Assembly (NCBI GenBank): GCA_018401135.1
Contig: JAGYLL010000006.1
Coordinates: 1-33,786, forward strand
Reading direction: 5' to 3'
DNA: 33,786 bases
DNA from: Candidatus Moraniibacteriota bacterium
Lineage (GTDB): Bacteria; Patescibacteriota; Minisyncoccia; Moranbacterales; GCA-2747515
Positions within the stretch are counted from its first letter, which is position 1, and each line of letters opens with the position of its first letter. Made by a program: the position numbers and the translations under genes. Shown here one piece after another: positions 5,901 through 32,475 of this stretch. The notes below the pieces were generated by a model. It saw only the letters and a list, made by a program, of their open reading frames with translations. It was not told the DNA's origin and ran no database searches.

Positions 5901-6014
5901 CATTGCATATTCTTCCTCGCTTTTTTCTCGCAGTTTCTTTAAAACATGATCGGTAAGAAAGTTTTTTTCTTCTCGAAAAAAATCAGATTTTGTATTTTTT
6001 GTGACGTGTACCAT
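2961..6014 (-). CDS. Tandem PilB/GspE-type ATPase fusion (two motor domains in one chain)
   Basis: 1017 aa; first Walker A TTGPTGSGKTTLLYSIL and second TTGPTGSGKSTTLYSIL; two DPDIILVGEIRDE(D/E)TA motifs; two Cys-rich zinc motifs (CPHC..CSQC and CDC..CQVC); T2SSE N-terminal domain only at the N-terminus. Confidence 0.93.
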   Translation of the reverse strand: MVHVTKNTKSDFFREEKNFLTDHVLKKLREKSEEEYAMALSQMVDLPYVDLNILPLNTDFVRLIPEKIAIQYKTGAFLRKGRTLYTVLTRPDNGEAKKVVQDIADENGWTVSWFIVSESSLQRLHDRYKNFSLFESLERMKLELSEDDFTAFQKQFAELFALKKNVLDMSTTEIFSLVIAGAVSLRASDIHFEPQEEGVRMRYRLDGVLQDVGILPFESYAYIVSRVKMMGKMKLNIRKSSQDGHFSVEVGTKQENKKVKRIDVRASILPSRFGETIVMRLLEQGGVFIAMEDLGLRGYAYDQLQEELKKTTGMIVTTGPTGSGKTTLLYSILNQLNEPGVKIITIEDPVEYEMKNISQTNISLENGYTFSSGLRSIVRQDPDIILVGEIRDEDTAEIAVQSALTGHLVLTTLHTNSSAGSVPRLINLGIKPDLIPSAVNAFVAQRLVRKVCPHCSEEYIPAEKTSEMIMKILSLISPKANITVPQKIEKLRRAKGCSQCNYTGYKGRIGIFEVMFMTENVDVLVKRMASEDEITSVAIEDGMITMTQDGILKAVEGITSMEEVWRVGGQFKFLEEVYEKLMSRYLGSSLFIAHTITQKFKKITLKITEFQEYAKEFSEEEILQSIMGYALFLGAEDVHIEPEEDDVNIRFRIDGVLQSVMKIPNVRYPNLLGRIKLLSNIKTEEQAGLRDSRFTLKWEPEEVGKTESVDVRVSIILGGYGETSVLRLLNIGAQSRELSFLGMREETKSRLEDAIRIPNGIILTTGPTGSGKSTTLYSILTKMNQPDKKIMTVEDPIEYRINGVLQTQTDESKGYGFSNALRSLLRQNPDIILVGEIRDEETAQMAVKSSLTGHLVFSTLHTNNAPSAIQRLVNMGISPNDLVTSVNFIMAQRLLRNLCDCKKKRPATEDEQREMKYFYTEYRRKAKKETLPDFSFLYEPVGCQVCRGIGYKGMSMISEGMDIKNQELSKVILGGGSGMDVQNVAIEQGMIPMVIDGIDKALAGVTSLEEVRRVTEL

Positions 6015-6082
6015 AAGAAAAAATTATATATACTTCTAGTATACTTCATTTTTCTTTTTTTACGAAATAGCAAAGAAGAAAA

Positions 6083-7207
6083 TTATATATTTTTGACAAG
6101 TTCTTCTATAAAAGCATTAGAAAAAGGCTCTTTTGCCTGAAAAAGAAAATAATTTCCTTGTACGGTTCCTTGTATATATTTTACTAGTTTTTCATACACT
6201 TCTTCATTTCGAGATCGTAATATGCCAGAAAAAGAACCTTCTTCTTTTTGGAATAATAAAAGAAAATGCGAAGCAGAAGAATAATGTGCTCGAACTTTTT
6301 CAAGTACAATAGTTACATCTTTTGGACCCGACCTACTTTGCACAAAATCTTCGAGAGAAATCATCGTCCACACAAGATTCCCTGTTTCTTCAAGATGAAG
6401 TTTTGTCAAAACTCTTCCTAATAATTTGAGAATATGGAAAGGCTGTGTTTTATAAAGATGTCTAATAATCTCTTGTTGATCAGCTCCAAAATCTATAAGA
6501 GAGGCTGAGTATTGCAAGGATTTCGGTTTCGTTTTAGATGATTGAAAGCTGTCTGTTCCCATAATAATACCTGCCAAAAGGCATTGTGCTATTTTTTCAG
6601 AGATATAACCTTCTTTTTCTTTCTCGAGAAAAAGTCCTGCGATAATTTCTGAAACACTCGACGCGGTAACGTCTATAATATTTGTCTGTGCAAACCGATC
6701 GTTATTACTTTGACAGTCTATGTTGATCAAAGGTATTTCAAAAAAAATATCTGGATTTTCTTCATAAATACTCCCTAGAGATTCTTTGTCTTTCGCTCCC
6801 AAAATAAAAGCGCCGTCATATTTCGTTTCCGCTGGAATAAACGAGAAATCTCTTGGGTCTATCGAGCTTTTCTGAGGTGTAATGTAAATACGAAAATCTT
6901 TTTCTCCTCTCTCTGTTCGAACATTTTCTATACTGTTGTGAGAAGTGTCGAAAATAATAACGAAATCACGCACACCCGAGAGGTCTTGGCGTATTTCTTT
7001 GGGATGAGGAAGGAAAGTAAGATCTTGCGAAGGGGAAAATGTCTGAGAAAAAACAAGTGTTGGTTCTTTATTTTGCTTTTCTAAAGCCAAAGAAAGTGCA
7101 TATCCAGCAGAAAGAATCTCTCCTGATGGGTTTTCTGGTAGAATAACCAAAGGAGTTGTATACTGTTTGAAAAAAGTAAAAAACTGTTCTCTTTCGTCCA
7201 ATGCCAT
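6083..7207 (-). CDS. DHH/DHHA1 phosphoesterase-like protein with degenerate catalytic motifs
   Basis: Layout follows NrnA-like proteins: LVILPENPSGEILSAGYALSLAL, VIIFDTS, PLINIDCQSNNDRFAQTNIIDVTASSVSEII, LLAGIIMGTDSF; start taken as MALDEREQ (7207). Confidence 0.7.
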   Translation of the reverse strand: MALDEREQFFTFFKQYTTPLVILPENPSGEILSAGYALSLALEKQNKEPTLVFSQTFSPSQDLTFLPHPKEIRQDLSGVRDFVIIFDTSHNSIENVRTERGEKDFRIYITPQKSSIDPRDFSFIPAETKYDGAFILGAKDKESLGSIYEENPDIFFEIPLINIDCQSNNDRFAQTNIIDVTASSVSEIIAGLFLEKEKEGYISEKIAQCLLAGIIMGTDSFQSSKTKPKSLQYSASLIDFGADQQEIIRHLYKTQPFHILKLLGRVLTKLHLEETGNLVWTMISLEDFVQSRSGPKDVTIVLEKVRAHYSSASHFLLLFQKEEGSFSGILRSRNEEVYEKLVKYIQGTVQGNYFLFQAKEPFSNAFIEELVKNI

Positions 7208-7248
7208 ATATTCTTTCCTTATGAGTATTTCTATCACGGTGAAGAAGA

Positions 7249-7277
7249 AGTGTAGACAAAAGAAATTGTTTTGTCAA
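7249..7277 (-). promoter_or_regulatory. Promoter for the DHH-like gene
   Basis: Minus strand TTGACA (7272-7277), 17-bp spacer, TACACT (7249-7254). Confidence 0.7.
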
Positions 7278-7302
7278 TGAAAGTTTTTTGTTTCAATGCT
7301 TT

Positions 7303-10300
7303 TTAGCACTTCCATGTAAAAGGATTCCACCATCTTTTGGAACATGTTGAAGATGCGGAAGAATCTTTTTGGAGTTGTTGTTTTTGTGTCGTTGATGTGG
7401 GAGGAGTTGGGTTTTGGTTAAGATTCTCGTTTTGATTTTGGTTTTGATTTTGATTTACATTTTCATCATTTCTACTTTGTTCTTCTTTTTCTTCTTCTTC
7501 CTTCTCGCTTTGACTTGGTGGTGTTTGTGGTGTTTGTTGTAGTTGTTGTGCTTTTTGTATTTCTTGATTCTCTTGTTCTTGTCCTCCTTCTTCCTCTTTC
7601 TTACTAAAGTCTATAGTCACTTGACTCTCTTGTTTGTTTCCTGCTTTGTCATAGGCTCGTATGTGGAGGGTGTAGATTCCAAGAGGGAGGGAATCAGGAA
7701 GGAAGTAGAAAGGATCGTTTTGTTTTCTCCACTTTCGTACAACCTTTCCTTGTTGGTTGTAGAGTTGGACTTGGTAGTGAGTGATTTCGGTAGTTTCGTC
7801 ACTGGCAAGAAAAGAGATGCTTTCTTGTGGGTCTCTGGTGGTAGTTTGTGGGAGGGGTTCTACAAAGCGTGGTTTGTCAGAGTCTATAGAGAGGGAGAAG
7901 AAAGAAGAGATATCAGAAGAGATGCCTTGTTCATTGGTAAAGGAGAGTGCATAGGATTGTTCTTTGTTGTTTTTTTGTTTGATATCTATATCCCATTTTC
8001 CTTGTTCGTCTATAGGGTGGGTAGAGAGTTTTTTGGTTCCTCCTTTTTTTGTTTTGGTATAGAGGGTGACGGTTCCTTTTTTTGAAGATTCATTCTTTCC
8101 TGTAAGGGTGGGGTCTTTTTTGTTGAGGTAGTTAGTATCGGAGAAAGAGAGGGAGTCTTTGGTATCAGTCGTCCAGGTATCTTTTTGGAGGGGTGGGGTT
8201 TGGGATTGGGATTCGTTTTGTGTTTGGTTTTGATTTTCATTTTGTGGTGGAGTTTGTGAGGGGAATTGTATGGTAAAAGATCCTGCTAGGCGTATTCCCG
8301 TATTATTTGATTCTGTAGGAGCAGAGTCGAAATGTGTTTCAATATCTGTTTGGAGATAGGATTGGGATGCTTCTATAGAGTAGGTTACTGTTTCGGTAGA
8401 AGTGAGGCTTTCTGGAAGAATATAAGAGCCTGTCCAAATGGTATCGCTATTTTCGTCGGTGGATGAGTAAGAAAGGAGAATTTTGTCTCCATTTTCCATA
8501 ATGACCTGCATAGCGTTTTCTCCATCAAAAACAGGATTTGTTTCTTGCATACTTGTCTTTACTCGAAAGTCGATTGTGTCACCAGCTTGTTTTGCTCCGG
8601 TAATGTCAGAGAGATCTGTAAGTGTCCAAGGGGCGAGAGCAAAGACTTTAGCAAAAGATTCGTCGATGAAACGAGTAGTGGAGCACATCGTCGTACAGTC
8701 AGGATCATCATAAATAACCACACCCTTATTAAATCCGACATATACCCAGCCACGCTCATCTGGGATGGCTTTGGAGAATTCGTATTGTTCCTTCTTCCCT
8801 TCCGGACCTTCCGGACGAGATATGTACGCATAGGGAATCTCCCATTTCAAAGCACCGTTTGCATCAATATAGCGAAATTGTTCTTCCACAACATCGAACT
8901 TAACAAGCTCACCCGAAACAAATTCAAATGTAGAGGAGTTTTGTAAATAATATCCGTTTTTTCCATCAGAAAATCCAAGTCTATCGGAATATGAAGATTC
9001 TTTTATTTGAAGTACTTCTCCAGTAGCACTGTCAATAACCTCCATTACTGCCGTAGCGTATGTTTTGCCATCAGCAATATCTCTTTTTGCTAAAAGATTT
9101 CCATCTTCACGAAGAATAATCTTTGCATATCCAAGTTCAGTATGTATACCTGCATCCCGTTCCCATTTAATCGTACCGTCAGGACGAATGGCGAGAATCT
9201 TTATGGGTGAAGGAAGAATTGTAAATGAAAAAGTTGTCCAATCAAAAGACATGTCAATAGGAAAAATCATATATATCGTCCCATCATTTCCTATGGTAAT
9301 CTTAGAGTCTATCCTCCCGCTATATATCTGCTCAATTGTTTTCTCTTCCAAGTTGATTGCCCAGAGTCCGCCCTTATCAACAAAAGACCCTGATTTGGTA
9401 ACTGAGACAACTACATACCCTCTCCCATCAGGCCCTATGCGCATAGGAGAAACACTCTTGCTTTCTCCAGACGCAAGTCCTTCGGGAACGACATTAAGCA
9501 CCGTTGTACTTTCAATGGTTCCATTGGGAGATTGCTCTACAAGAGTTGTGTTTACACTACTAGCATTATCTCTGGTGTAGTAAAGCTTTCCATTATTTCC
9601 CAGTGCCACGTTCTGCCCTCCATGAGCTCCGTGTGTTCCAGAAAAGTATACCCATTTCACTTCTCCCGTATTGGTATCGATAGCTTGAGAGTAATCGACA
9701 TTCATATTATCACTGTAGTAGACACCCTCTGAATCGATGAAGCCTCCTCCCAAATAGACTGCGGGTATTTGCCAGTTTTCCTTTCCGGTGTCTCGATTGA
9801 GCGAAAAGAGTCGCCCTTCACTGTTAAACATATGTCCTACGATAGCATCTTTTCGAGAAAAGAGATTTGCTGTATAAGGATCTCCAGAAATTCTTTCACT
9901 CATCCATCGGAAGGCAGGGTAGGTTTCGGAATTGAAATACGGGGTGCTATTGGTCGTTTGTTGATTTCCTCCCGTTACTGGCCATGGGTCATCTTCGGAA
10001 ATCGAAACTGTTTCTTGGAAGGTGCCTTGTCTCGGTGACCAATCAAAAGAAAGATTATCTATCGTGGGAGTGATGTTTGTATCCTCCGTGGTCATAAGGA
10101 TATTGATTCGAATAGATCGAGGATCAGCACAGGTAGTGTCCCATATATTACTGCAATACTCCAAGTACGGCATTACACTGAGATCAATCTCGGATGTTTC
10201 GGAAATATCAATGCCTCCTGAGTTTCCTGCAAGTATATAGTCTGGCCAGAGTTTACTATTTCTATCCATAACCTGCACTTTGAGCGTCGTGCCTTGTGGT

Positions 10301-10626
10301 ATAGTGGCATCTACCGAAAGCGTCCCCCATTGTGCAACGAGGAGCGGTCTGAGTGCAGTAGTTCTTGCATTTCCACTCGTCCTATAGGGAGGAGTAAAAG
10401 AAGTTTGACTTGCTGTATTGGTAAGTTGAAGCACTCCTTGAGCAGTATTAACATTTACATAGCTTCTTGTGGGAACGCCTGTGTTGTCAGAAAAGTCGTC
10501 TGCATAGAGTCCATTTTGATGATCTGTAGTAACAGTAGCATAGGCTGTATGTGTGAAAAAGGGGAATATCAAGGGAGTTATAAGTGCTATGAGTGCTGTT
10601 ATGGGGAAAAAATATTTTTTTCGCAT
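7303..10626 (-). CDS. Large secreted protein: PQQ/beta-propeller-like repeats, Ig-like domains, Q/N-rich C-terminus
   Basis: 1107 aa; signal peptide MRKKYFFPITALIALITPLIFPFFTHTAYA; repeats such as LFSLNRDTGKENWQIPA, IDTNTGEVKWVYFSG, IRPDGTIKWERDAG; Ig-like TLTGKNESSKKGTVTLYTK...; low-complexity tail. Confidence 0.85.
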   Translation of the reverse strand: MRKKYFFPITALIALITPLIFPFFTHTAYATVTTDHQNGLYADDFSDNTGVPTRSYVNVNTAQGVLQLTNTASQTSFTPPYRTSGNARTTALRPLLVAQWGTLSVDATIPQGTTLKVQVMDRNSKLWPDYILAGNSGGIDISETSEIDLSVMPYLEYCSNIWDTTCADPRSIRINILMTTEDTNITPTIDNLSFDWSPRQGTFQETVSISEDDPWPVTGGNQQTTNSTPYFNSETYPAFRWMSERISGDPYTANLFSRKDAIVGHMFNSEGRLFSLNRDTGKENWQIPAVYLGGGFIDSEGVYYSDNMNVDYSQAIDTNTGEVKWVYFSGTHGAHGGQNVALGNNGKLYYTRDNASSVNTTLVEQSPNGTIESTTVLNVVPEGLASGESKSVSPMRIGPDGRGYVVVSVTKSGSFVDKGGLWAINLEEKTIEQIYSGRIDSKITIGNDGTIYMIFPIDMSFDWTTFSFTILPSPIKILAIRPDGTIKWERDAGIHTELGYAKIILREDGNLLAKRDIADGKTYATAVMEVIDSATGEVLQIKESSYSDRLGFSDGKNGYYLQNSSTFEFVSGELVKFDVVEEQFRYIDANGALKWEIPYAYISRPEGPEGKKEQYEFSKAIPDERGWVYVGFNKGVVIYDDPDCTTMCSTTRFIDESFAKVFALAPWTLTDLSDITGAKQAGDTIDFRVKTSMQETNPVFDGENAMQVIMENGDKILLSYSSTDENSDTIWTGSYILPESLTSTETVTYSIEASQSYLQTDIETHFDSAPTESNNTGIRLAGSFTIQFPSQTPPQNENQNQTQNESQSQTPPLQKDTWTTDTKDSLSFSDTNYLNKKDPTLTGKNESSKKGTVTLYTKTKKGGTKKLSTHPIDEQGKWDIDIKQKNNKEQSYALSFTNEQGISSDISSFFSLSIDSDKPRFVEPLPQTTTRDPQESISFLASDETTEITHYQVQLYNQQGKVVRKWRKQNDPFYFLPDSLPLGIYTLHIRAYDKAGNKQESQVTIDFSKKEEEGGQEQENQEIQKAQQLQQTPQTPPSQSEKEEEEKEEQSRNDENVNQNQNQNQNENLNQNPTPPTSTTQKQQLQKDSSASSTCSKRWWNPFTWKC

Positions 10627-10774: not shown

Positions 10775-11275
10775 ATGAAAAATTTTACAACTCTTTCTCG
10801 CAAAGAAACTCAAGAACTAGCAATGCTTTTTGCCGAGACGCTCCACTCAAAAACATTTCTCTGTCTTGATGGTAATCTGGGCGGGGGGAAAACAACCTTT
10901 GCACAAGGAATTCTTACTTTTTTCGAAGCAGAACCTCCCTATACGAGCCCAACGTTTTCTCTCATAAAAGAATATCCTCTCCCAAGAGAAAAAAATGGGA
11001 TTTCTTACATCTATCATATTGATGCTTATAGGATAGCTTCCCCTGATATTCTTTCTCTTGGATGGGAAGAAATCATTGAAAAACCTCAAAGTCTTATCCT
11101 TTTGGAATGGCCTGAGAATGTCTCGGAATATATACCCAAGACGGCTCTTTTTCTTACGTTTTCTCATCCTCAAAATCCTCACGATAAAGATACTCGTATT
11201 ATTACCCTTCCAAACAATCTCCCCCCAGACACCGTTTCCACCACAAACGCTTTGTCACAACATCATCTCGAGTAA
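10775..11275 (+). CDS. tsaE: tRNA threonylcarbamoyladenosine biosynthesis protein TsaE
   Basis: 166 aa; LDGNLGGGKTTFAQGIL, YTSPTFSLIKEYPL, IYHIDAYRI, LGWEEII, LLEWPENV. Confidence 0.95.
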   Translation: MKNFTTLSRKETQELAMLFAETLHSKTFLCLDGNLGGGKTTFAQGILTFFEAEPPYTSPTFSLIKEYPLPREKNGISYIYHIDAYRIASPDILSLGWEEIIEKPQSLILLEWPENVSEYIPKTALFLTFSHPQNPHDKDTRIITLPNNLPPDTVSTTNALSQHHLE

Positions 11276-14200
11276 ATACAAATATATTTTCTTTTTTTGA
11301 AAGGTATTGTTTTTGGTGAAACCTTATTCCACGTTCATAGAGAAGAAAATATATTCCTTCAAATACATATTTTTGTTTTTCGAGAGAAGCTCCCAAAACA
11401 GCCTCTTCTCGTGTCTCTTTTTCTTGTGCTTCTTGAGTTTCTTGAGTTTTTTGTTCCTGAAAAATAGTTGGGGAAATCCATATCCACAAACCCGAAGAAA
11501 GTCGGTATTCTTCATCATCAAGAATTTTTTCTTTTGCATATAAGAGAGAATCAGAAACTTTTTTATTAGGTTGTCTCAGTTCAATGGCTCCTGATGAATT
11601 TCTCAGAGAAAAAGCGCTATGTATTCTATAGAACTTGATAGATTTTTGTGGTTCTATTTCTAAAGACGTACGGATAGGATGATTGGTAAGTTTTTCAAAA
11701 CTTTCTCCTGTAGCAATTGACCAGCCCAAAAGATCAATCGTTTTTTCATCCTCATTATAAATTTCAATCCACTCGCCCTCTGTATCTTTCCCCGCTGGAT
11801 TTGGGAGCAGTGCAATAATTTTTGCCTTAAATTTTGGATACGGCACAATAACAATATCACGAGAAATAAATACATCTTCTATTCCATCACTTACTCGCAA
11901 TGTTACGGTGTACGTTCCTTTTTTTTCATAGGTATGTGAAGTGGTTTCTCTATAACTTTTCTTAGTATTTCCAAACTCCCAACGGTAAGTAAGATCATCA
12001 CCATCTTTATCTTCAACTCGAACAGAAAAGGGTGTGCTTACTCCTTCATAACCTTTTTTTGGAATAGTTTTTTCTTTAATTTTTGGAAGCGTATTAAGCT
12101 TATTTTTCTCTCCTGGTGTAAGGTGTTTACTATTTCGCAATTGATCCCTATCTCTATTTTTACTTATATTTTCTTTTGAACTTTCCCAAGAAACGACATC
12201 GATTGGATATCCACTTGCATCAAAAAGAGAAAGAGATTCTTTTGTGTTATTGAGAGCAAAGAGAAACTCCTCTCTAGAGAGAACCTTGTATTCCCCCGCA
12301 GAAAGGAGAGTATTTTGAGGAAAAATATATTCTTGCAAAGACTCGTCAACTATTTTCCAAAAACTCATATCCACAGAGCTTTCTCCGAAATTATAAAGTT
12401 CTATGTATTCATTTTTTTCTTCATCTTCTTTTGGATTGGGGAGTATCTCATTGATTTGAATCGTTGCTCCCGATTGAGATTGAGGAAATATGTTTTTTTC
12501 TTTTGGACTTCTATAGGGTGTTTTCTTCCACAGAGAGACTTCTTCAGAAAAAATAAAAGAAAAATCTTTTGTAGGTTTTTCATAAGACATACTTTCTACC
12601 ACAAAACCAGCGGGATCAAAAAGATATACGGTTTCTTTTCCTTGATCATTAAGAATAAAAGGAGTTTCTTTACCATATACTACTCTATACTCTCCAGGCA
12701 TAAGAACAGATTGATTGGGAAAGATATATCGATTTTTGGTCTCATCTCCCAATGACCAAAAACGTATATCTACAGGACTGTCTCCAAAATTATAAATTTC
12801 AATAAATTCATCTTTAGCTCCTGTTGACGGTCTTGGGAATATTTCATTGAGACGAATCGTGGAATTCTCTATTTTTGTGGCGAAAATATTCTTCTCTCCT
12901 TTTGTCACAAAGGGAGTTTCTTTCCAACTATTCTCATCGCGTGCCCAACTTTTTCCTTTTTGAGAATCCTTGTATTCAAATTCATCTACTATCCCCCCAC
13001 ATCTATCTAAAAGAGAGATTTTTTCATTACTATTGTTAAGAGAAATACCAAAATGTTCAGCTCTATATATACCAGGAGCAAGTATGCCTGAAAGTGCTTT
13101 TTTTGTTGTTTTATCTCCAATAAACCAACCTGAAAGATCAACGCTCTCCTCTCCATAATTATATAATTCAATAAACTCTTCTTGAAGGGACGTGTCTGGA
13201 TCGGGTAAAAGCTCTTCAAGACGAACGGTTTTTATTCCTTCAAAACCAAGAAAATTATTTTCTTCTCCTGGTGTTTCATTACAAACCCATTTCCATACGT
13301 CACCATCAAAAGAATAGGATTTTCCGTATTCGGCTTCTGGATACGAAACGCTATCCACAATTTGCAAATCAGGTGCGATAAGTTCTAGTGTATTTCCTTT
13401 ATCAATAAGAGAAAACTTTGCCTCATCGAGAAAAAACTTTTTTCCTTCTATTTCCCCTGAAAGACTTATACCTTTTCCTGATCTATCTTGAATCTTCCAA
13501 CCTTCAAGAGAAATAGACTCTTCTCCAAAATTAAAGATTTCTATAAATTCATCTTTAGTTCCTGTTGACGGTCTTGGGAGAAGCTCGTTAAATCGAAGTG
13601 TTTTTTTATATTCTTTTTCCTTTTCTTTTTCATTGTTTTTTCCTGGCGTTGATTGATATTGCCCCATCCACAGATCTTCTTTCTCAAAAAATGCAATACT
13701 ATAAAATTTTTCAAAAATAGTATCCAAAAAAACACTGTCTATGATTTCTTTATTTTTATTACAGAGTACTACTGTATTCCCAAGTGCCACAGTAAATCCT
13801 TTTTTAAAATCAGCTCCTAGAGAATCAGCGTAGCTATTTTCTGTGTTTGCTAGTACATAGAGTTTTTCACTTTCTATATGTACATCGGAAAATGTATGAA
13901 GAGATGAGGAGGTTTTTGATGAACAACTCACATCTTTATTTTCTCCTGTTATTTTACGAAGCGACCACCCGTCTACATCAATAGCTTCATTGCTAGGGTT
14001 ATATATTTCTATAAAATCCTCTTTTGTTTTTCCTGGCCCTCCCGTAAATCGAATTTCGTTTATGTATATTTTCTTTCCTTCTCTTTCTTCTCCACCTGTT
14101 TCACTTTCAATTTCATCTTTTTTTATGTTTTCTTCTTCACCAACTTCTTCATTTTTTTCAATACTGATATCTCCTTCAATTTGTTGTAAAATATCCTCTT

Positions 14201-14285
14201 CTTGTCCATACACAAATGGCCACATAAACAAGAAAATTCCCACAAAAAATACTATTTTTATAGATATCTGTAAAAAATATTTCAT
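11202..14285 (-). CDS. Secreted multi-lamin-tail-domain (LTD) protein with a PKD domain
   Basis: 1027 aa; signal peptide; six LTD-type units (INEIRFTGGPGKTKEDFIEIYNPSNEAIDVDGWSL, FNELLPRPSTGTKDEFIEIFNFGEESISLEGWKI, etc.); PKD-like VEDKDGDDLTYRWEFGN...TYTVTLRVSDG. Confidence 0.9.
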   Translation of the reverse strand: MKYFLQISIKIVFFVGIFLFMWPFVYGQEEDILQQIEGDISIEKNEEVGEEENIKKDEIESETGGEEREGKKIYINEIRFTGGPGKTKEDFIEIYNPSNEAIDVDGWSLRKITGENKDVSCSSKTSSSLHTFSDVHIESEKLYVLANTENSYADSLGADFKKGFTVALGNTVVLCNKNKEIIDSVFLDTIFEKFYSIAFFEKEDLWMGQYQSTPGKNNEKEKEKEYKKTLRFNELLPRPSTGTKDEFIEIFNFGEESISLEGWKIQDRSGKGISLSGEIEGKKFFLDEAKFSLIDKGNTLELIAPDLQIVDSVSYPEAEYGKSYSFDGDVWKWVCNETPGEENNFLGFEGIKTVRLEELLPDPDTSLQEEFIELYNYGEESVDLSGWFIGDKTTKKALSGILAPGIYRAEHFGISLNNSNEKISLLDRCGGIVDEFEYKDSQKGKSWARDENSWKETPFVTKGEKNIFATKIENSTIRLNEIFPRPSTGAKDEFIEIYNFGDSPVDIRFWSLGDETKNRYIFPNQSVLMPGEYRVVYGKETPFILNDQGKETVYLFDPAGFVVESMSYEKPTKDFSFIFSEEVSLWKKTPYRSPKEKNIFPQSQSGATIQINEILPNPKEDEEKNEYIELYNFGESSVDMSFWKIVDESLQEYIFPQNTLLSAGEYKVLSREEFLFALNNTKESLSLFDASGYPIDVVSWESSKENISKNRDRDQLRNSKHLTPGEKNKLNTLPKIKEKTIPKKGYEGVSTPFSVRVEDKDGDDLTYRWEFGNTKKSYRETTSHTYEKKGTYTVTLRVSDGIEDVFISRDIVIVPYPKFKAKIIALLPNPAGKDTEGEWIEIYNEDEKTIDLLGWSIATGESFEKLTNHPIRTSLEIEPQKSIKFYRIHSAFSLRNSSGAIELRQPNKKVSDSLLYAKEKILDDEEYRLSSGLWIWISPTIFQEQKTQETQEAQEKETREEAVLGASLEKQKYVFEGIYFLLYERGIRFHQKQYLSKKENIFVFTRDDVVTKRLWWKRCLGGDCLEG

Positions 14286-19962: not shown

Positions 19963-20886
19963 TTATTTTTCCAGTAAACCATACCTTTCCAATAATCCAA
20001 CAGGGAGACAATCATCTGTTGGTGTATTAAACCTCCACCGATCAATGTCACTTTCAGAGAGAAGAGGATCTTTTACTCCTTGCTTCCCAACAATCCATTC
20101 TCCGATTGGAAGAGAACTATTTTGCAAAACTTCTCTATGATATTGTTCGGTATCAATAAAAACCCTACTTATTTCTCCGAGTTGTATTCCATGATTAATA
20201 TATACATGCTTTTCACATTCTCTCGAATTGCACTCTGATGGAAAAGAAGATATTTTTTCATCAGCAATAATCATTTCAAGAAGAATGTCGTCACGACGTA
20301 AATATTCAACAAAAGACCCTCCGACCGATGCTGAAAGATACGGTGAAAACTCCATAAATCGTGATCCCGCATGTTTTATTTCTAATCGCTCCTGTCTACA
20401 ATGCCTTTGGATAAATTCAATAACATTACGATTACTTTTTTCCCCAACCACCCTAGAAATTGCCTCTTTATTATCTGTTATCCGCTCCAAAATTTTTTCT
20501 AAAGAAAGATTTTTTGTCGCTTCATCCCAAGATACTAGATCTTCATCTTCAGCATAATCAAGGAAAAACTCTCTCACCCTCTTTTCGGATAATTCTCTAT
20601 CGAAATCTTCTAAATGATTATTTTCAACAGAATGTTCTCCTTCATTTAATGCACGAAGAAAAATATCTCTGGCTATTTTTCTGTAGTAGCGAACTTTTCT
20701 CCCCTTTCTATCTCTACTTGCACTCTCTACCATTTTTTCTCGCCTCTCCTCGCTAAAGAGTTTATTACATACTTCTTGCATTTCTTTCGTATCTTTACAA
20801 CGAAGAAGTTGCTGCTGGAGAATCCTTCCATCTTCGGTAGTAATACTCTCTTTTTCAAGAGAGGTCATTTTTTCAAAAAAATTCAT
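19963..20886 (-). CDS. Hypothetical protein, possibly ADP-ribosyltransferase-like C-terminal half
   Basis: 307 aa; ATGA overlap with murE stop; C-terminal SPYLSASVGGSFVEY...SRECEKHVYI with S-x-S and E-x-E about 37 residues apart. Confidence 0.6.
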   Translation of the reverse strand: MNFFEKMTSLEKESITTEDGRILQQQLLRCKDTKEMQEVCNKLFSEERREKMVESASRDRKGRKVRYYRKIARDIFLRALNEGEHSVENNHLEDFDRELSEKRVREFFLDYAEDEDLVSWDEATKNLSLEKILERITDNKEAISRVVGEKSNRNVIEFIQRHCRQERLEIKHAGSRFMEFSPYLSASVGGSFVEYLRRDDILLEMIIADEKISSFPSECNSRECEKHVYINHGIQLGEISRVFIDTEQYHREVLQNSSLPIGEWIVGKQGVKDPLLSESDIDRWRFNTPTDDCLPVGLLERYGLLEK

Positions 20887-22148
20887 ATCTCTTCTAATAA
20901 CTCTTTAATAACTTTTTTATCATTCCATGGAAGCATTTTTCCTTTCTCAAAAATTGTTTCTTCTGCACCTTTTCCTGTAACTACAACAATGTCCCCTTTT
21001 TGAGCTATACTCAAAGCTTTTTTCAAGGCTTCTCGACGATCAAAGATACGGAAATATTCAACGTTTTTTTCTTTCTTCTTAATACCTTTTTCGATTTCAT
21101 CAAGTATACGATTTGGGTCTTCCCAGTAAGGATCTTCATTGGTAAGAATAATAACGTCTGCATACCTATCTACAATATTTCCCATTAAAGGTCGTTTTCC
21201 TCTATCACGATCACCACAAGCACCAAAGACAGCAATTATCTTTCCTTCTTTTTTTGTTTGAGAAATAAAGGTATATACTGTTTTGAGCGCTTCTGGTGTA
21301 ACGGCATAATCAATTATTATAGTAAAACCCCTTTGATGAGAAATATATTCCATTCTTCCTGGTATGGTTTGTATTTTTGAAAGTGCCTTTCTGCTAATCC
21401 TTTTATCTATTTCCAAGACGTGAGCAACGGCAAGTGTTGCGAGAGCATTTTCTATATTAAACTCTCCGGGAAGAGAAAGGGAGAAATCTTCTTTCTCAAA
21501 AATAAATGTTGATCCACAAAGGTTTGATTGAACATTTTTTACACAAAAATACTTAACATTTTTTTCTTTATTTGTACAAGAAAGTCCGTAAAGTATTTTT
21601 TGCTTTGCCCCAACAGAAAGAAACTCTTGATAAGAAGGGAGTTTTTCATTGACAATAATGGTATTTGCTTTTTCGAAAAGTTTTCGCTTTGCTTTTCGAT
21701 ATCGATGCATTGTTTTATGATAATCTAAATGCTCGCGTGTGATATTGGTAAGAACAGCTATATCAAAATGTATCCCCCAAAGCCTATTTTGATCCAAAGC
21801 GTGAGAAGATACTTCCAAAATAGCATATTCACAGCCATTTTGAACAGCTTTTTGCAAAAATCCTTGTACAAAAAAAGAAGAGAGAGTTGTATATTTTGTT
21901 GTATTTATTGTCTCTTTTCCATTTATACAAAAATTGATAGTTGAGGCAAGTGCTACAGAATATCCCGCTTCACTCAAAACCTTTTCTATCATATTTGCTG
22001 TTGTTGTTTTACCATCAGTTCCCGTAATTCCTATAATTTTGAGTTTTTTTGCAGGAAATCCAAACCAAAAACAAGAAATGACCGCTTGGATAAGATGGTA
22101 AATATTCTTATACGATTGGGGAATGCTTTTTTTCAAATAATGAAACAT
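20883..22148 (-). CDS. murE: MurE-like Mur ligase (short N-terminus)
   Basis: 421 aa; IIGITGTDGKTTTANMIEKVL, YAILEVSSHALDQNR, NITREHLDYHKTMHRYRKAK, GRMEYI, FGACGDRDRGKRPLMG, LTNEDPYWEDPNRI. Confidence 0.88.
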   Translation of the reverse strand: MFHYLKKSIPQSYKNIYHLIQAVISCFWFGFPAKKLKIIGITGTDGKTTTANMIEKVLSEAGYSVALASTINFCINGKETINTTKYTTLSSFFVQGFLQKAVQNGCEYAILEVSSHALDQNRLWGIHFDIAVLTNITREHLDYHKTMHRYRKAKRKLFEKANTIIVNEKLPSYQEFLSVGAKQKILYGLSCTNKEKNVKYFCVKNVQSNLCGSTFIFEKEDFSLSLPGEFNIENALATLAVAHVLEIDKRISRKALSKIQTIPGRMEYISHQRGFTIIIDYAVTPEALKTVYTFISQTKKEGKIIAVFGACGDRDRGKRPLMGNIVDRYADVIILTNEDPYWEDPNRILDEIEKGIKKKEKNVEYFRIFDRREALKKALSIAQKGDIVVVTGKGAEETIFEKGKMLPWNDKKVIKELLEEI

Positions 22149-22149
22149 A

Positions 22150-23148
22150 TTATTTTCCTATGTGACGAAGCTTTCTTGCTATTTTATAGAGAAAATACCG
22201 CTTTGAATTAAGAATAATATCATACGTTCCAGGAAATTGTATACTTTCTGTTTTTGGGCAAAAAGAGGTTTTAAATCGGGTTATTCCCTCCCAATCTCCC
22301 CCCTCTTTATTCTGAGTGTCCTTCTCTTCACGTGAGAGAGAGACTCCTCCAAAATCATACCACATACATCCCCGTTTTTTCATATCTTGAATAGCCTGCC
22401 AATGAAGTAAAAAAGGTGCCATACAATTTCTTTGTTCGTCAGAAGATCCCCCGTGAAGATATATCGCGCAATCTTTTTGTATCATTATCATATTAATAGC
22501 AAGTACCGCATCTTCTCGTAAAGCTACATAGAGTTGTAATTTTTTCTCATCAAAAACAGTAAACATTTTTCTATAATATTCAAAGGAATGTGTTTTTATG
22601 TTTGCACGCTTGGCAGTAGCTTGGATAAGTTCAAAAAAAATCTTTTGATATTTTTCTTCTCTTGTTGCCACTATATGTACACCTTTTTTTTGTGCCAATC
22701 GAATATTGTAGCGAGTTTTTGTTTTCATAGAAGAAAGGAGTTGTTCTTCCGGTTGAGAAATATCCATAACAAGTATTTCTTGTGGTTGTATATTTTTTGG
22801 AGCAGGGACAAGACTTGCTTCTTGGGGGAGTTTTTCTTGTATTTCTTTAAAGATTTTTTTGTTCTCAGGTTCGATTCTTAGCCAAAAACATCCTCTTCCC
22901 TGAACTTCTTTTAAAAGATTGTGCATTTCTTCTTTTTGAAATGTTTCTTTGGATGAAACTTGTACTCTAGGTCCTCTTGGACAATAGGCATATTTTCCAA
23001 CCAAAGGAATCTCTTGTTCTATGCACAAACCCAAAATATGTTTATCTCCAAAACGAAACGTGTCATTCCCTACTTTATTTTGAAATTGTTCCCATTCAAA
23101 AGATTGTAAAAGCTGTTGCTCTCCTTTATACGTTTCTTTCATACACAC
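22150..23148 (-). CDS. FemX/FemAB-family peptidoglycan bridge aminoacyltransferase
   Basis: 332 aa; SFEWEQFQNKVG, KTRYNIRLAQKKGV, AINMIMIQKDCAIYLHGGSSDEQRNCMAPFLLHWQAIQDMKKRGCMWYDFGGVS. Confidence 0.88.
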   Translation of the reverse strand: MCMKETYKGEQQLLQSFEWEQFQNKVGNDTFRFGDKHILGLCIEQEIPLVGKYAYCPRGPRVQVSSKETFQKEEMHNLLKEVQGRGCFWLRIEPENKKIFKEIQEKLPQEASLVPAPKNIQPQEILVMDISQPEEQLLSSMKTKTRYNIRLAQKKGVHIVATREEKYQKIFFELIQATAKRANIKTHSFEYYRKMFTVFDEKKLQLYVALREDAVLAINMIMIQKDCAIYLHGGSSDEQRNCMAPFLLHWQAIQDMKKRGCMWYDFGGVSLSREEKDTQNKEGGDWEGITRFKTSFCPKTESIQFPGTYDIILNSKRYFLYKIARKLRHIGK

Positions 23149-29276: not shown

Positions 29277-31679
29277 ATGGAAAATTGGCCAATATCGCCC
29301 GATCTCAAAAGAGAAAAACCGTATATGTTTCAAAGACGTCCAAAAGATACTCCCCAATCTCGTGATTTTTTTGGAACTTTACTTTCAGGAAATTATTTCA
29401 AAGATTTTCCTGAAGAAGCAAGACAGAAAATACTTCTTTATTGGAGAGAAAATGGTGTAAAGATACAACTACAATTTCAATACTTTCTCAGCCAAGCAAC
29501 TTCTCCAGAAGCTATGCGTGATCGCATTCAATCTTTTCTTTCCTTTCAAGAAGGTGGTGCTGAAATGATAGAAAAAATTTTCTTTATCGTCTCTTCTCTA
29601 GATTCAAAAAAGTCTGATACTTTATTTTCTCACTACGCTCAGCTTGCTCATTCTTTAGAAGAAAGAGCTCAAAAACTTTCTGATATTTTTTCTGATACTT
29701 TCAAAGGAATCTATGAAAGCTCTCCTGTGCTTAACAAAGAAACAATAACGAAATCTCTTCACCTTCGAGCTAATGCTCTTTTTTCTGAAACAGCAGAGAA
29801 TATTCGCTTAGGAGAAACGATTGATATCTCCGAAACTCTCCAAAAAATACAAGAAGAAGAAACCGCGCAAGAAGCTCTTTTACAAGAGATTTCTCATTAT
29901 GTCGAAACTATACGAACACTTTGTATTGATCTAAGAAAAAATCTTCTCGAAAAAGACGAACTAGCTAATAAAAAAAGAATTTCTCTTCTCGAAGAGGAAC
30001 GCTCTGGTCAAGAAAATGAAGAAGATCAAGAATTTCTCGAAATAGAAATTGCTTCTGCACATTTTGATGATGCAGAACTTGCACACGAACAAGACATTAC
30101 CGATGCTATGATCCTTTCCGAACAAGAAATTTCCCATCTTATCAAAGAATATTCTGATAAAAATCTTTATACAGAAATTCCCCCTTCCCAAAAACAAGCC
30201 CTACTTGGAAAACTCTCTTGTGCAAAAACGCTCTATCAGCATCTCCAGAGAAAATTTGAAGATGTTTTGTATGGACGAGAATCTGCCGTTCTTTCACAAG
30301 AAACGCTTAAAAATCTTTCTCTACAAACTATCGATGAAACACCCCCCGAATTACAAAAGGAAAGCATACAAAAATACCCGCCCTATTTTCCTGTTGGTAT
30401 ATCTGCCGATCTCAATCAATGGGAAAAAGTTTTTTCAGAAGAATGCTCTGTTGCCAAACCCATTGAACTTTATGCCTATCTTTTTTGGCTCAATAATCAA
30501 GAATCTCCTGTAGAAATCGTTATCTGCGATACTATACAAATCAATAATTATCTCGCGGAATACCCCCATCTCACTCAGCAAGAATCCTATGAAAAAGCTC
30601 GTCAAATAGGGTCGATCGAGGCACAAACCTATAGAAATATTATTGACACCTTTGGTCTCCACAATATTTCTTTGGTTCGGTACGATGAATTTCTTTCCTC
30701 TCCTCATACAACAGGAGAAAGAAAAACGTTTCAAGAATACAAGACTCTCTGCGAAACACTCTCTCAACATCCCCTGTTTGAAGCCGCCTTTCTCAATGCC
30801 GTACAAGAATCTCGAGCACAAACTCCCGAAGAAAAAAAACGTCATATAGGGTATGCCACAGAAGAAGTTGCATGGACTCTGGCGAAACGTGGAACCAAAA
30901 TAGGACATATCAATGAAGCACGTTATGATGCCCTTTCTTTTGCTCTTGAAGTTATCGAAGGAATCTTCCAACAAGAGAACAAAGGAGATATACTAGCACC
31001 AGAAAACGAAACCTTTCTCCAAGAAGTCCTGCAGTCTCTTGGAACTGTTCTTGCTCAAAGTTTTTCAAGAATTTTTGCTAGACTTTCAAAAAACACTCCT
31101 CAATACGACTATCTTAAACAATTAGAAGCCACTTTTTTTGGAAATCCAAAAACTCAAGGCTTTCTCAAGAGATCTCAAGTGGGAAAGAAAAAAGAAGGTT
31201 CATCTCTTACTCCTTCTCTCGTACAACAATACGTACAAAAACATAAACTTTTTGATCGTTATATCAGCCCTTCTGTCTCCTCAGTAAGTTTTGGGTATCG
31301 TCAAGCAGGGAAAAAAGAAGAAAGTGTTGTAAAATTTCGAGAACCCTATAGTACGTATTTTTATGACGATCCTGCGCATATATTTCTTCACGCTGATCAA
31401 ATTGTTGCTGTTCCCCAAGGAGCTCTTTCTGGAAAAATTCTCACCCTTCCTGCACAAAAACAACAAGAATATGCACAAAAAGTTATTCGGCCACTTATCA
31501 TTGAATATTTCAAAACACTCAAAACAGCACCCGAAGATTATTTTCTTTCTTTGGGAAAAGAGAGGGGGGCACTTTTTGAAGAATGCCGCTCTTCAGAGAC
31601 ACTCACCGATCTTCTCTCTTTCGTCCAAAAATACATTGTCCGTCCTTCTACCAATACGACTGCGGATACTGTTTCTTGA
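29277..31679 (+). CDS. 800-aa protein with cyclodipeptide-synthase-like central domain
   Basis: VGIS (G374, S376), VEIVICDTIQINNYLA...EKARQIG, GYATEE (Y526, E530), Y550; matches the remembered CDPS arrangement G35/S37/Y178/E182/Y202. Confidence 0.6.
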   Translation: MENWPISPDLKREKPYMFQRRPKDTPQSRDFFGTLLSGNYFKDFPEEARQKILLYWRENGVKIQLQFQYFLSQATSPEAMRDRIQSFLSFQEGGAEMIEKIFFIVSSLDSKKSDTLFSHYAQLAHSLEERAQKLSDIFSDTFKGIYESSPVLNKETITKSLHLRANALFSETAENIRLGETIDISETLQKIQEEETAQEALLQEISHYVETIRTLCIDLRKNLLEKDELANKKRISLLEEERSGQENEEDQEFLEIEIASAHFDDAELAHEQDITDAMILSEQEISHLIKEYSDKNLYTEIPPSQKQALLGKLSCAKTLYQHLQRKFEDVLYGRESAVLSQETLKNLSLQTIDETPPELQKESIQKYPPYFPVGISADLNQWEKVFSEECSVAKPIELYAYLFWLNNQESPVEIVICDTIQINNYLAEYPHLTQQESYEKARQIGSIEAQTYRNIIDTFGLHNISLVRYDEFLSSPHTTGERKTFQEYKTLCETLSQHPLFEAAFLNAVQESRAQTPEEKKRHIGYATEEVAWTLAKRGTKIGHINEARYDALSFALEVIEGIFQQENKGDILAPENETFLQEVLQSLGTVLAQSFSRIFARLSKNTPQYDYLKQLEATFFGNPKTQGFLKRSQVGKKKEGSSLTPSLVQQYVQKHKLFDRYISPSVSSVSFGYRQAGKKEESVVKFREPYSTYFYDDPAHIFLHADQIVAVPQGALSGKILTLPAQKQQEYAQKVIRPLIIEYFKTLKTAPEDYFLSLGKERGALFEECRSSETLTDLLSFVQKYIVRPSTNTTADTVS

Positions 31680-32475
31680 GCCAATCAGGTTGTAAGTCTT
31701 TACAATATTTCCGACCAATTTCCCAGAAAAAATTGTGAATAGAAAGCATTGTTTCATAAATTTCTTTGTTTTCTACAATAAATCCAATATGAATTTTTTC
31801 TGAAAAGGTCACAAAAGTTACTTTATTACTATACACATTGATCTCTGTTGTAAAAGGATATTTCTTATGATCCACAAAGAGAATTTCTGTAACATCATTT
31901 GCTTTATACCCTTTCATATATTCCAATGCCTCTATGTTATTGGGAATAATAACTTTTTCTTTGATGCCTAATCGTTTTCGTTTCGGTGCGTAGTATTTCG
32001 TATTCCATTCCTTAAGATACCGAGCATATCCAGCAACATCAGAAAATGTAAGGATCTCTTTGCCCCTATTATCATCAAGAGAGTCTTCCAAAACTTGCTG
32101 TATTCCTTCAATTCCTTCAAAAAACCGAACGCCCGGACGACCTGCCACAAGATTGTAATCAGATATAATAGAAGGAAGAGCACTTTCGAGTATGCGTTTG
32201 GCATCATAGGCTTTTTTTTCTTGACGCTCAGCAAACTCTTTGAGTAAAACAGGGTGTTTGAGAAAAAACGTAGCTACTTCACCAAGTGCTTCTTTTTTTT
32301 CTACCACACCCATCTCTTGTAAATCTTCTAGAATTTTATACACCAATCCTCTTTTGATCATTGTTTGTTTAGCAAGAGCGCTTGCTCGCATTTCTCCTCC
32401 TCTGAGAAGGGTTTCGTAGACAAGAGCTTGATTTTTTTCAAGTCCCGCTTGTTTGAAAATTTCTTCGTAATACAT
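31648..32475 (-). CDS. TrmB-family transcriptional regulator
   Basis: 275 aa; N-terminal wHTH AGLEKNQALVYETLLRGGEMRASALAKQTMIKRGLVYKILEDLQEMGVVEK and C-terminal RPGVRFFEGIEGIQQVLEDSL regulatory domain. Confidence 0.85.
   Translation of the reverse strand: MYYEEIFKQAGLEKNQALVYETLLRGGEMRASALAKQTMIKRGLVYKILEDLQEMGVVEKKEALGEVATFFLKHPVLLKEFAERQEKKAYDAKRILESALPSIISDYNLVAGRPGVRFFEGIEGIQQVLEDSLDDNRGKEILTFSDVAGYARYLKEWNTKYYAPKRKRLGIKEKVIIPNNIEALEYMKGYKANDVTEILFVDHKKYPFTTEINVYSNKVTFVTFSEKIHIGFIVENKEIYETMLSIHNFFWEIGRKYCKDLQPDWLKKQYPQSYW

Follow-up and report, generated by a model that had tools for sequence, protein, structure and literature searches.

The C-terminal ~430 residues of an 800-aa protein are probably a divergent homologue of cyclodipeptide synthases (CDPSs) that works as an aminoacyl-tRNA-using acyl-serine enzyme, a reading to which we assign a probability of about 0.62. 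CDPSs build small cyclic peptides from tRNA-carried amino acids. The family is small, has two accepted subfamilies, and its members are normally ~240 aa long. The domain described here is a divergent relative that probably acts as CDPSs do at the acyl-serine step and falls outside both described subfamilies. The window, i.e., the whole stretch of DNA analysed (33,786 nt), is one whole contig of a host genome of 0.82 Mb, and the frame at 29277-31679 of the forward strand is open across 800 aa. The gene, its parts, and the neighboring gene are as follows.

29277..31679, forward strand: 800-aa protein with an ATG start, made of an N-terminal helical part, a connector domain, and a C-terminal CDPS-like domain
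29502..30011, forward strand: connector domain (aa 76-245), FLSxExGGxEMGEKI...FxxYA
30378..31676, forward strand: CDPS-like domain (aa ~368-800), from hhalign, AlphaFold, and Foldseek
30396..30404, forward strand: candidate nucleophile loop G374-I-S376, from family conservation and alignment to the CDPS GxS
30528..30530, forward strand: D418 (within CDTIQ), counterpart of ParcuCDPS D58
30852..30866, forward strand: Y526-x3-E530, counterparts of AlbC Y178 and E182
30897..30929, forward strand: family-specific motif K541-x-[GS]-H544-x2-E547-x-[RK]-Y550-D551
31335..31352, forward strand: family-specific motif F687-[RK]-E689-x-Y691-S692, near the C-terminus
31648..32475, reverse strand: TrmB-family transcriptional regulator (Pfam TrmB, E=5e-11), tail-to-tail with overlapping 3′ ends

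Elsewhere in the window, a FemAB-family protein (22150-23148, reverse strand; Pfam E=6e-43), whose family comprises aminoacyl-tRNA-dependent GNAT-fold ligases, adjoins a Mur-ligase-like gene (20883-22148). A surface-type protein of 1027 aa, encoded at 11202-14285 (reverse strand), combines six lamin-tail (LTD) repeats with a PKD domain. The GC skew changes sign at 6001-10000 (+0.12 vs about -0.1 elsewhere), over a large gene for Ig-like domains (7303-10626).

Searching the order yielded two relatives of the protein, L012 and L013, and a profile built from these and the window protein retrieved three more from GTDB genomes: L043 (Falkowbacteria, 39-42% identical over the CDPS-like domain), L044 (Magasanikbacteria, 32-36%), and L047 (a MAG protein, 26-27%). 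Altogether, the five homologues are 24-42% identical over this domain, and the family proteins range from 771 to 1387 aa. No family relatives were found when viral contigs and plasmids were searched. An apparent match at L004 in G014 (aa 650-765) was discarded as spurious, lying within a sigma-factor-like ORF, and weak profile matches in G436, G484, and G535 were judged by eye to be unrelated proteins. In L012/L045 (G121), an in-frame TAA inside the connector domain leaves the N-terminus truncated or interrupted.

Homology to CDPSs emerged at the level of profiles. By hhalign profile-profile comparison, the six-member family matched seven genuine CDPSs with 96.7% probability and E=4.4e-10; the score was 78, whereas 80 column shuffles reached no more than 23 and reversed profiles 12 to 13. 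With 11 CDPSs, the E value was ~1e-11. Moreover, L043, which is 42% identical to the window protein over the domain, matches PF16715 in the equivalent stretch with E=1.1e-5 and 25.7 bits, just below the cut-off of 27 bits. In the opposite direction, the family profile detected genuine CDPSs in whole genomes (G127, E=2e-7; G071, E=7e-7; L017, E=0.004), all of them CDPSs by Pfam; the genomes of the Pfam-positive CDPSs reached in this way were G127, G071, and G083. The window protein alone has no match to Pfam CDPS or NCBIfam, a PDB search returned nothing useful for it, and a PF16715 search of the whole genome misses it. The C-terminal half of the domain is divergent and without a CDPS match, including the part that carries F687-[RK]-E689-x-Y691-S692. 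The first-pass annotation had proposed that a large 800-aa protein hides a CDPS-like domain. This proposal is supported by the profile-profile homology with its shuffled controls, and further by the Pfam match of L043, the genome scans, the S/D/Y/E conservation, and the fold matches described below.

That proposal had been drawn from residue spacing. The positions given for G374, S376, Y526, E530, and Y550 are correct in the 800-aa translation, in which L379 and D551 were checked as well, and so are the distances of 150 residues from S376 to Y526, 4 from Y526 to E530, and 24 from Y526 to Y550. The AlbC residues that it had used for comparison (S37, N40, Y178, E182, Y202, and H203) agree with the published active site (PMC5935735; also PMC7566563). 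A GxS with Y-x3-E-x19-Y 125-170 residues downstream of it occurs in 1.6% of composition-preserving shuffles, and the remaining 34 stop-to-stop frames of ≥150 aa in the window all lack this pattern. Taken alone, the spacing match is only moderately unlikely and does not constitute proof.

Conservation within the family strengthens the case for the residues themselves, which the earlier reading expected to be kept in homologues. In the six-sequence alignment, G374, D418, Y526, E530, and Y550 are invariant in all six members; at position 376, L047 has Thr and the other five have Ser. Since only ~45 of the 471 columns of this alignment are invariant, the probability of G374, Y526, E530, and Y550 all being so by chance is ~0.096^4, or roughly 1e-4 by hand arithmetic. 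K541, H544, E547, and D551 are likewise invariant in 6/6 along with Y550. Between the mutual homologues L012 and L013, dN/dS is ~0.14 in the CDPS-like part, which places the domain under purifying selection. The G374-I-S376 loop aligns to the CDPS GxS. In alignments including those by hhalign, D418 pairs with the CDPS Asp, and Y526 and E530 pair with the CDPS Tyr and Glu that correspond to AlbC Y178 and E182. The D418 column is at least 90% conserved in the combined family and CDPS alignment, and the E530 column is invariant in 17/17 sequences, 11 CDPSs among them. In ParcuCDPS, D58 pairs with the catalytic Ser (PMC7613923).

The identity of the cyclization Tyr is less straightforward. AlbC Y202 relays a proton in cyclization (PMC5935735), and the first-pass annotation had equated it with Y550. 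The invariance and the exact spacing of Y550 speak for this assignment; however, the profile alignments do not pair the two residues, and in the predicted model Y550 lies in a helix that comes after a short strand at 540-542. In hhalign, the K-x-[GS]-H-x2-E-x-[RK]-Y-D stretch is an insertion relative to CDPSs, and neither the global nor the low-threshold mode of the program singled out a replacement for Y202. Besides Y550, H544 or Y691 are alternative candidates for this role. A possible equivalence of the FREPYSTY block to the last CDPS strand (cf. LIEAY at the end of L052) found no statistical support. If Y550 is the Tyr in question, the residue after it, where CDPSs carry His or Pro (residue 203), is Asp551 in 6/6 members. 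The equivalent of position 40 is Leu or Pro, not Asn; the N-x-Y-F loop that follows GxS in CDPSs is replaced by an insertion, and another insertion, long and helical, precedes the last conserved block. Thus, the earlier assignment to an "XYZ" type rather than NYH holds insofar as the domain is not NYH, but the subfamily is named XYP, and with Asp551 after the putative catalytic Tyr the domain would not be XYP either.

Structure prediction agrees with this picture. The AlphaFold model of aa 358-800 from the family plus CDPS alignment reached a pLDDT of 77.7 and a pTM of 0.80, and its top 14 Foldseek matches were all CDPS chains (including 9j61, 9gun, 5ocd, 5mlp, and 3oqh) with probability 1.00 and TM scores by target of ~0.5-0.6; as CDPS rows were present in the alignment, this match is not independent. 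Because such rows could bias the better model, one built from three family members only was searched too. That model was poor (pLDDT 41) and served solely as an independent query for the fold search, in which its top 13 matches were still CDPSs. Hence, in the comparison with CDPS and class Ic aminoacyl-tRNA synthetase (aaRS)-like structures that had been proposed at the outset, both models match solved CDPSs best, and the CDPS-like domain is predicted to have the class Ic aaRS-like Rossmann fold.

The CDPS-like domain forms the head of a larger scaffold. Its connector is common to proteins of 848-900 aa in related genomes (blastp of aa 82-192 vs L007, E=1e-8; aa 40-191 vs L008, E=5e-7), and a connector profile (A6) matches in 29/132 genomes of the order. 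In nearly all of these 29 genomes, the protein ends in another kind of head, for the most part GNAT-like; of five such heads tested, three pass the Pfam GNAT cut-offs, and the remainder look alike by eye. L044, with a CDPS-like head, and L008, with a GNAT-like head, have ~335 residues of their upstream helical parts in common (E=5e-15). Together, the common connector and this shared helical part indicate that different heads have been swapped onto the same scaffold. At all six CDPS-like loci and at 13 of the 20 assessable other loci (n=22, of which two end at a contig edge), a tail-to-tail gene of the TrmB family is found no more than 250 bp away. Since the host genome contains only two TrmB matches over the cut-off, this pairing is not background. 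These observations suggest a previously undescribed swappable-head system. The first-pass annotation had noted neither the exchange with a GNAT-like head nor the conserved TrmB neighbor. At L045:6511-8161 and L046:6535-8243, two TrmB-like genes stand in tandem beside the CDPS-like gene. A CPR cassette of helical scaffold, connector, and GNAT-like head, in most cases accompanied by a convergent TrmB-family gene, is seen at L118-L137, L007, L008, and L010; its scaffold is HEAT-like by one weak Pfam match.

Considering these features, we propose that the class Ic aaRS-like Rossmann domain would bind aminoacyl-tRNA and that the amino acid would be moved from the tRNA onto Ser376 with the help of Asp418 (a Ser/Asp pair), while Tyr526 and Glu530 would anchor the aminoacyl group, with Glu530 as the base. 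The acyl-enzyme would then pass the amino acid on, and the simplest acceptor would be a second aminoacyl-tRNA, giving a (cyclo)dipeptide. The tail-to-tail TrmB-family gene would probably control the CDPS-like gene. Tailoring genes (P450, cyclodipeptide oxidase) were looked for, and none occurs in the 33,786-nt window, a point against this reading.

The main rival to cyclodipeptide formation retains the aminoacyl-tRNA and the acyl-serine and has the amino acid handed, without cyclization, to a target held by the scaffold (a protein, peptide, or small molecule), the same job as that of the GNAT-like head. We regard this as possible, though on balance unlikely. In most other loci, the same connector carries GNAT-like heads, both head types have the same TrmB partner, and the known Tyr202-Pro/His mark and the post-GxS loop are lost; besides, the GNAT-fold Fem/MprF enzymes also use amino acids from aminoacyl-tRNA (PMC2922099). 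However, Y550, invariant and at the exact AlbC spacing, could still be the cyclization Tyr, and the GNAT-like heads look by Pfam like ordinary acetyl-CoA GNATs and need not use aminoacyl-tRNA. Somewhat more speculatively, one may envision a modular two-gene system, namely a scaffold with an exchangeable GNAT-like or CDPS-like head plus a TrmB regulator, in which the CDPS-like head would be a third CDPS lineage that moves amino acids from aminoacyl-tRNA to a scaffold-presented target and not only to a second aminoacyl-tRNA.

A degenerate or binding-only CDPS relative, i.e., an aminoacyl-tRNA sensor or decoy without catalysis, appears improbable. The Ser-to-Thr change in L047, the uncertain Tyr202 equivalent, and the lack of a CDPS match in the divergent C-terminal half would fit such a role, but all the other active-site positions are invariant at 24-42% identity, where most of the sequence has changed, and a dN/dS of 0.14 is at odds with it as well. 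More improbable still is a divergent class Ic aaRS or another HUP-domain enzyme that is not a CDPS. TyrRS and TrpRS do rank next after CDPSs in the fold search, and K-[IV]-[GS]-H loosely resembles KMSKS; yet the domain lacks a HIGH motif, its GxS-D-Y-E set is of the CDPS type, and the host genome already has two ordinary class Ic synthetases. Membership among class Ic aaRSs was rejected on hhalign E values of 0.6 for TyrRS and 0.04 for TrpRS, vs 4.4e-10 for CDPSs; the TyrRS/TrpRS profiles were built from the same genomes, and the TyrRS set includes a wrong ORF (L064), which could slightly weaken this control. Chance resemblance without homology, for which one could cite the loose pattern in 1.6% of shuffled sequences and the missing Pfam CDPS match of the window protein alone, is in effect refuted by the controls with shuffled and reversed profiles, and the profile, Pfam-homologue, genome-scan, and fold evidence also stands against it.

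The first-pass annotation considered a CDPS in a reduced genome remarkable. Such an occurrence is not new in itself, as the structure of ParcuCDPS from Parcubacteria RAAC4_OD1_1 has been solved and the enzyme characterised (PMC5816076, PMC7613923). In addition, 8/387 sampled genomes of the class (about 2%) encode genuine CDPSs over the Pfam cut-off, and CDPSs were also found at the level of the phylum. Among other CDPS genes encountered, L057:1426-2118 (forward strand) encodes a 231-aa Pfam-CDPS relative (E=1e-4, below the cut-off) that keeps ADTLQ and is without GxS. The CDPS gene of G234 (L022/L028) is split by an in-frame TAA, perhaps as a pseudogene or through a sequencing error. In L051:1174-2133 (reverse strand), a CDPS is fused to a SET domain, and in L021:2109-2630 (forward strand), a CDPS adjoins a SET-domain gene; the SET domain is possibly a methylation partner. 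Genuine CDPSs with a C-terminal SBP_bac_3 domain (E ~1e-16) are found in two CPR genomes, at L016:664-2097 (reverse strand) and L017:209-1603 (forward strand), and this fusion to a solute-binding protein is absent from the architectures in PMC5816076.

If the reading of the window protein as a divergent CDPS homologue is true, a deeply diverged CDPS lineage, missed by Pfam, retaining the acyl-serine machinery without the subfamily mark, and sitting in a GNAT-head position, would widen the known roles of aminoacyl-tRNA-dependent enzymes. It would also provide a testable handle on giant CPR proteins and their TrmB-type regulators, and imply that current family models under-count tRNA-dependent enzymes.

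Compared with known systems, the domain shares with ParcuCDPS (PDB 7QB8) and the AlbC-type XYP CDPSs the class Ic aaRS-related Rossmann core, the GxS nucleophile, an Asp that pairs with the Ser (D58 there, D418 here), and the helix with Y-x3-E (AlbC Y178/E182). In contrast to AlbC-type CDPSs, which are ~240 aa and stand alone, it is the C-terminal part of a 771-1387 aa protein, has insertions in two places (one following GxS, and a long helical one ahead of the last block), and bears its own K-x-[GS]-H-x2-E-x-[RK]-Y-D and F-x-E-x-Y-S motifs with no Y-P or Y-H mark. CDPSs fused to a C-terminal P450, methyltransferase, or ABC-transporter are known, and the isolated CDPS domain of one such fusion is active (PMC5816076). 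There, too, the CDPS resides within a longer protein, but at the N-terminus and followed by a second domain, whereas the present domain lies at the C-terminus and is preceded by a helical module. With the TyrRS/TrpRS catalytic domain, the relation is at the level of fold, as for all CDPSs; here neither HIGH nor a true KMSKS is present, and no profile match is seen. The GNAT-fold acyltransferases (Pfam Acetyltransf_1/6/7/10) occupy the same position behind the connector and have the same TrmB-type neighbor in related genomes, but their fold is unrelated to that of the CDPS-like head. Searches of open-licence papers did not turn up a CDPS-like head mounted on a scaffold whose other heads are GNAT-like. 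CDPSs in CPR and CDPS fusions were already known; what appears to be new here is a CDPS-like head in the scaffold position of a GNAT-like head.
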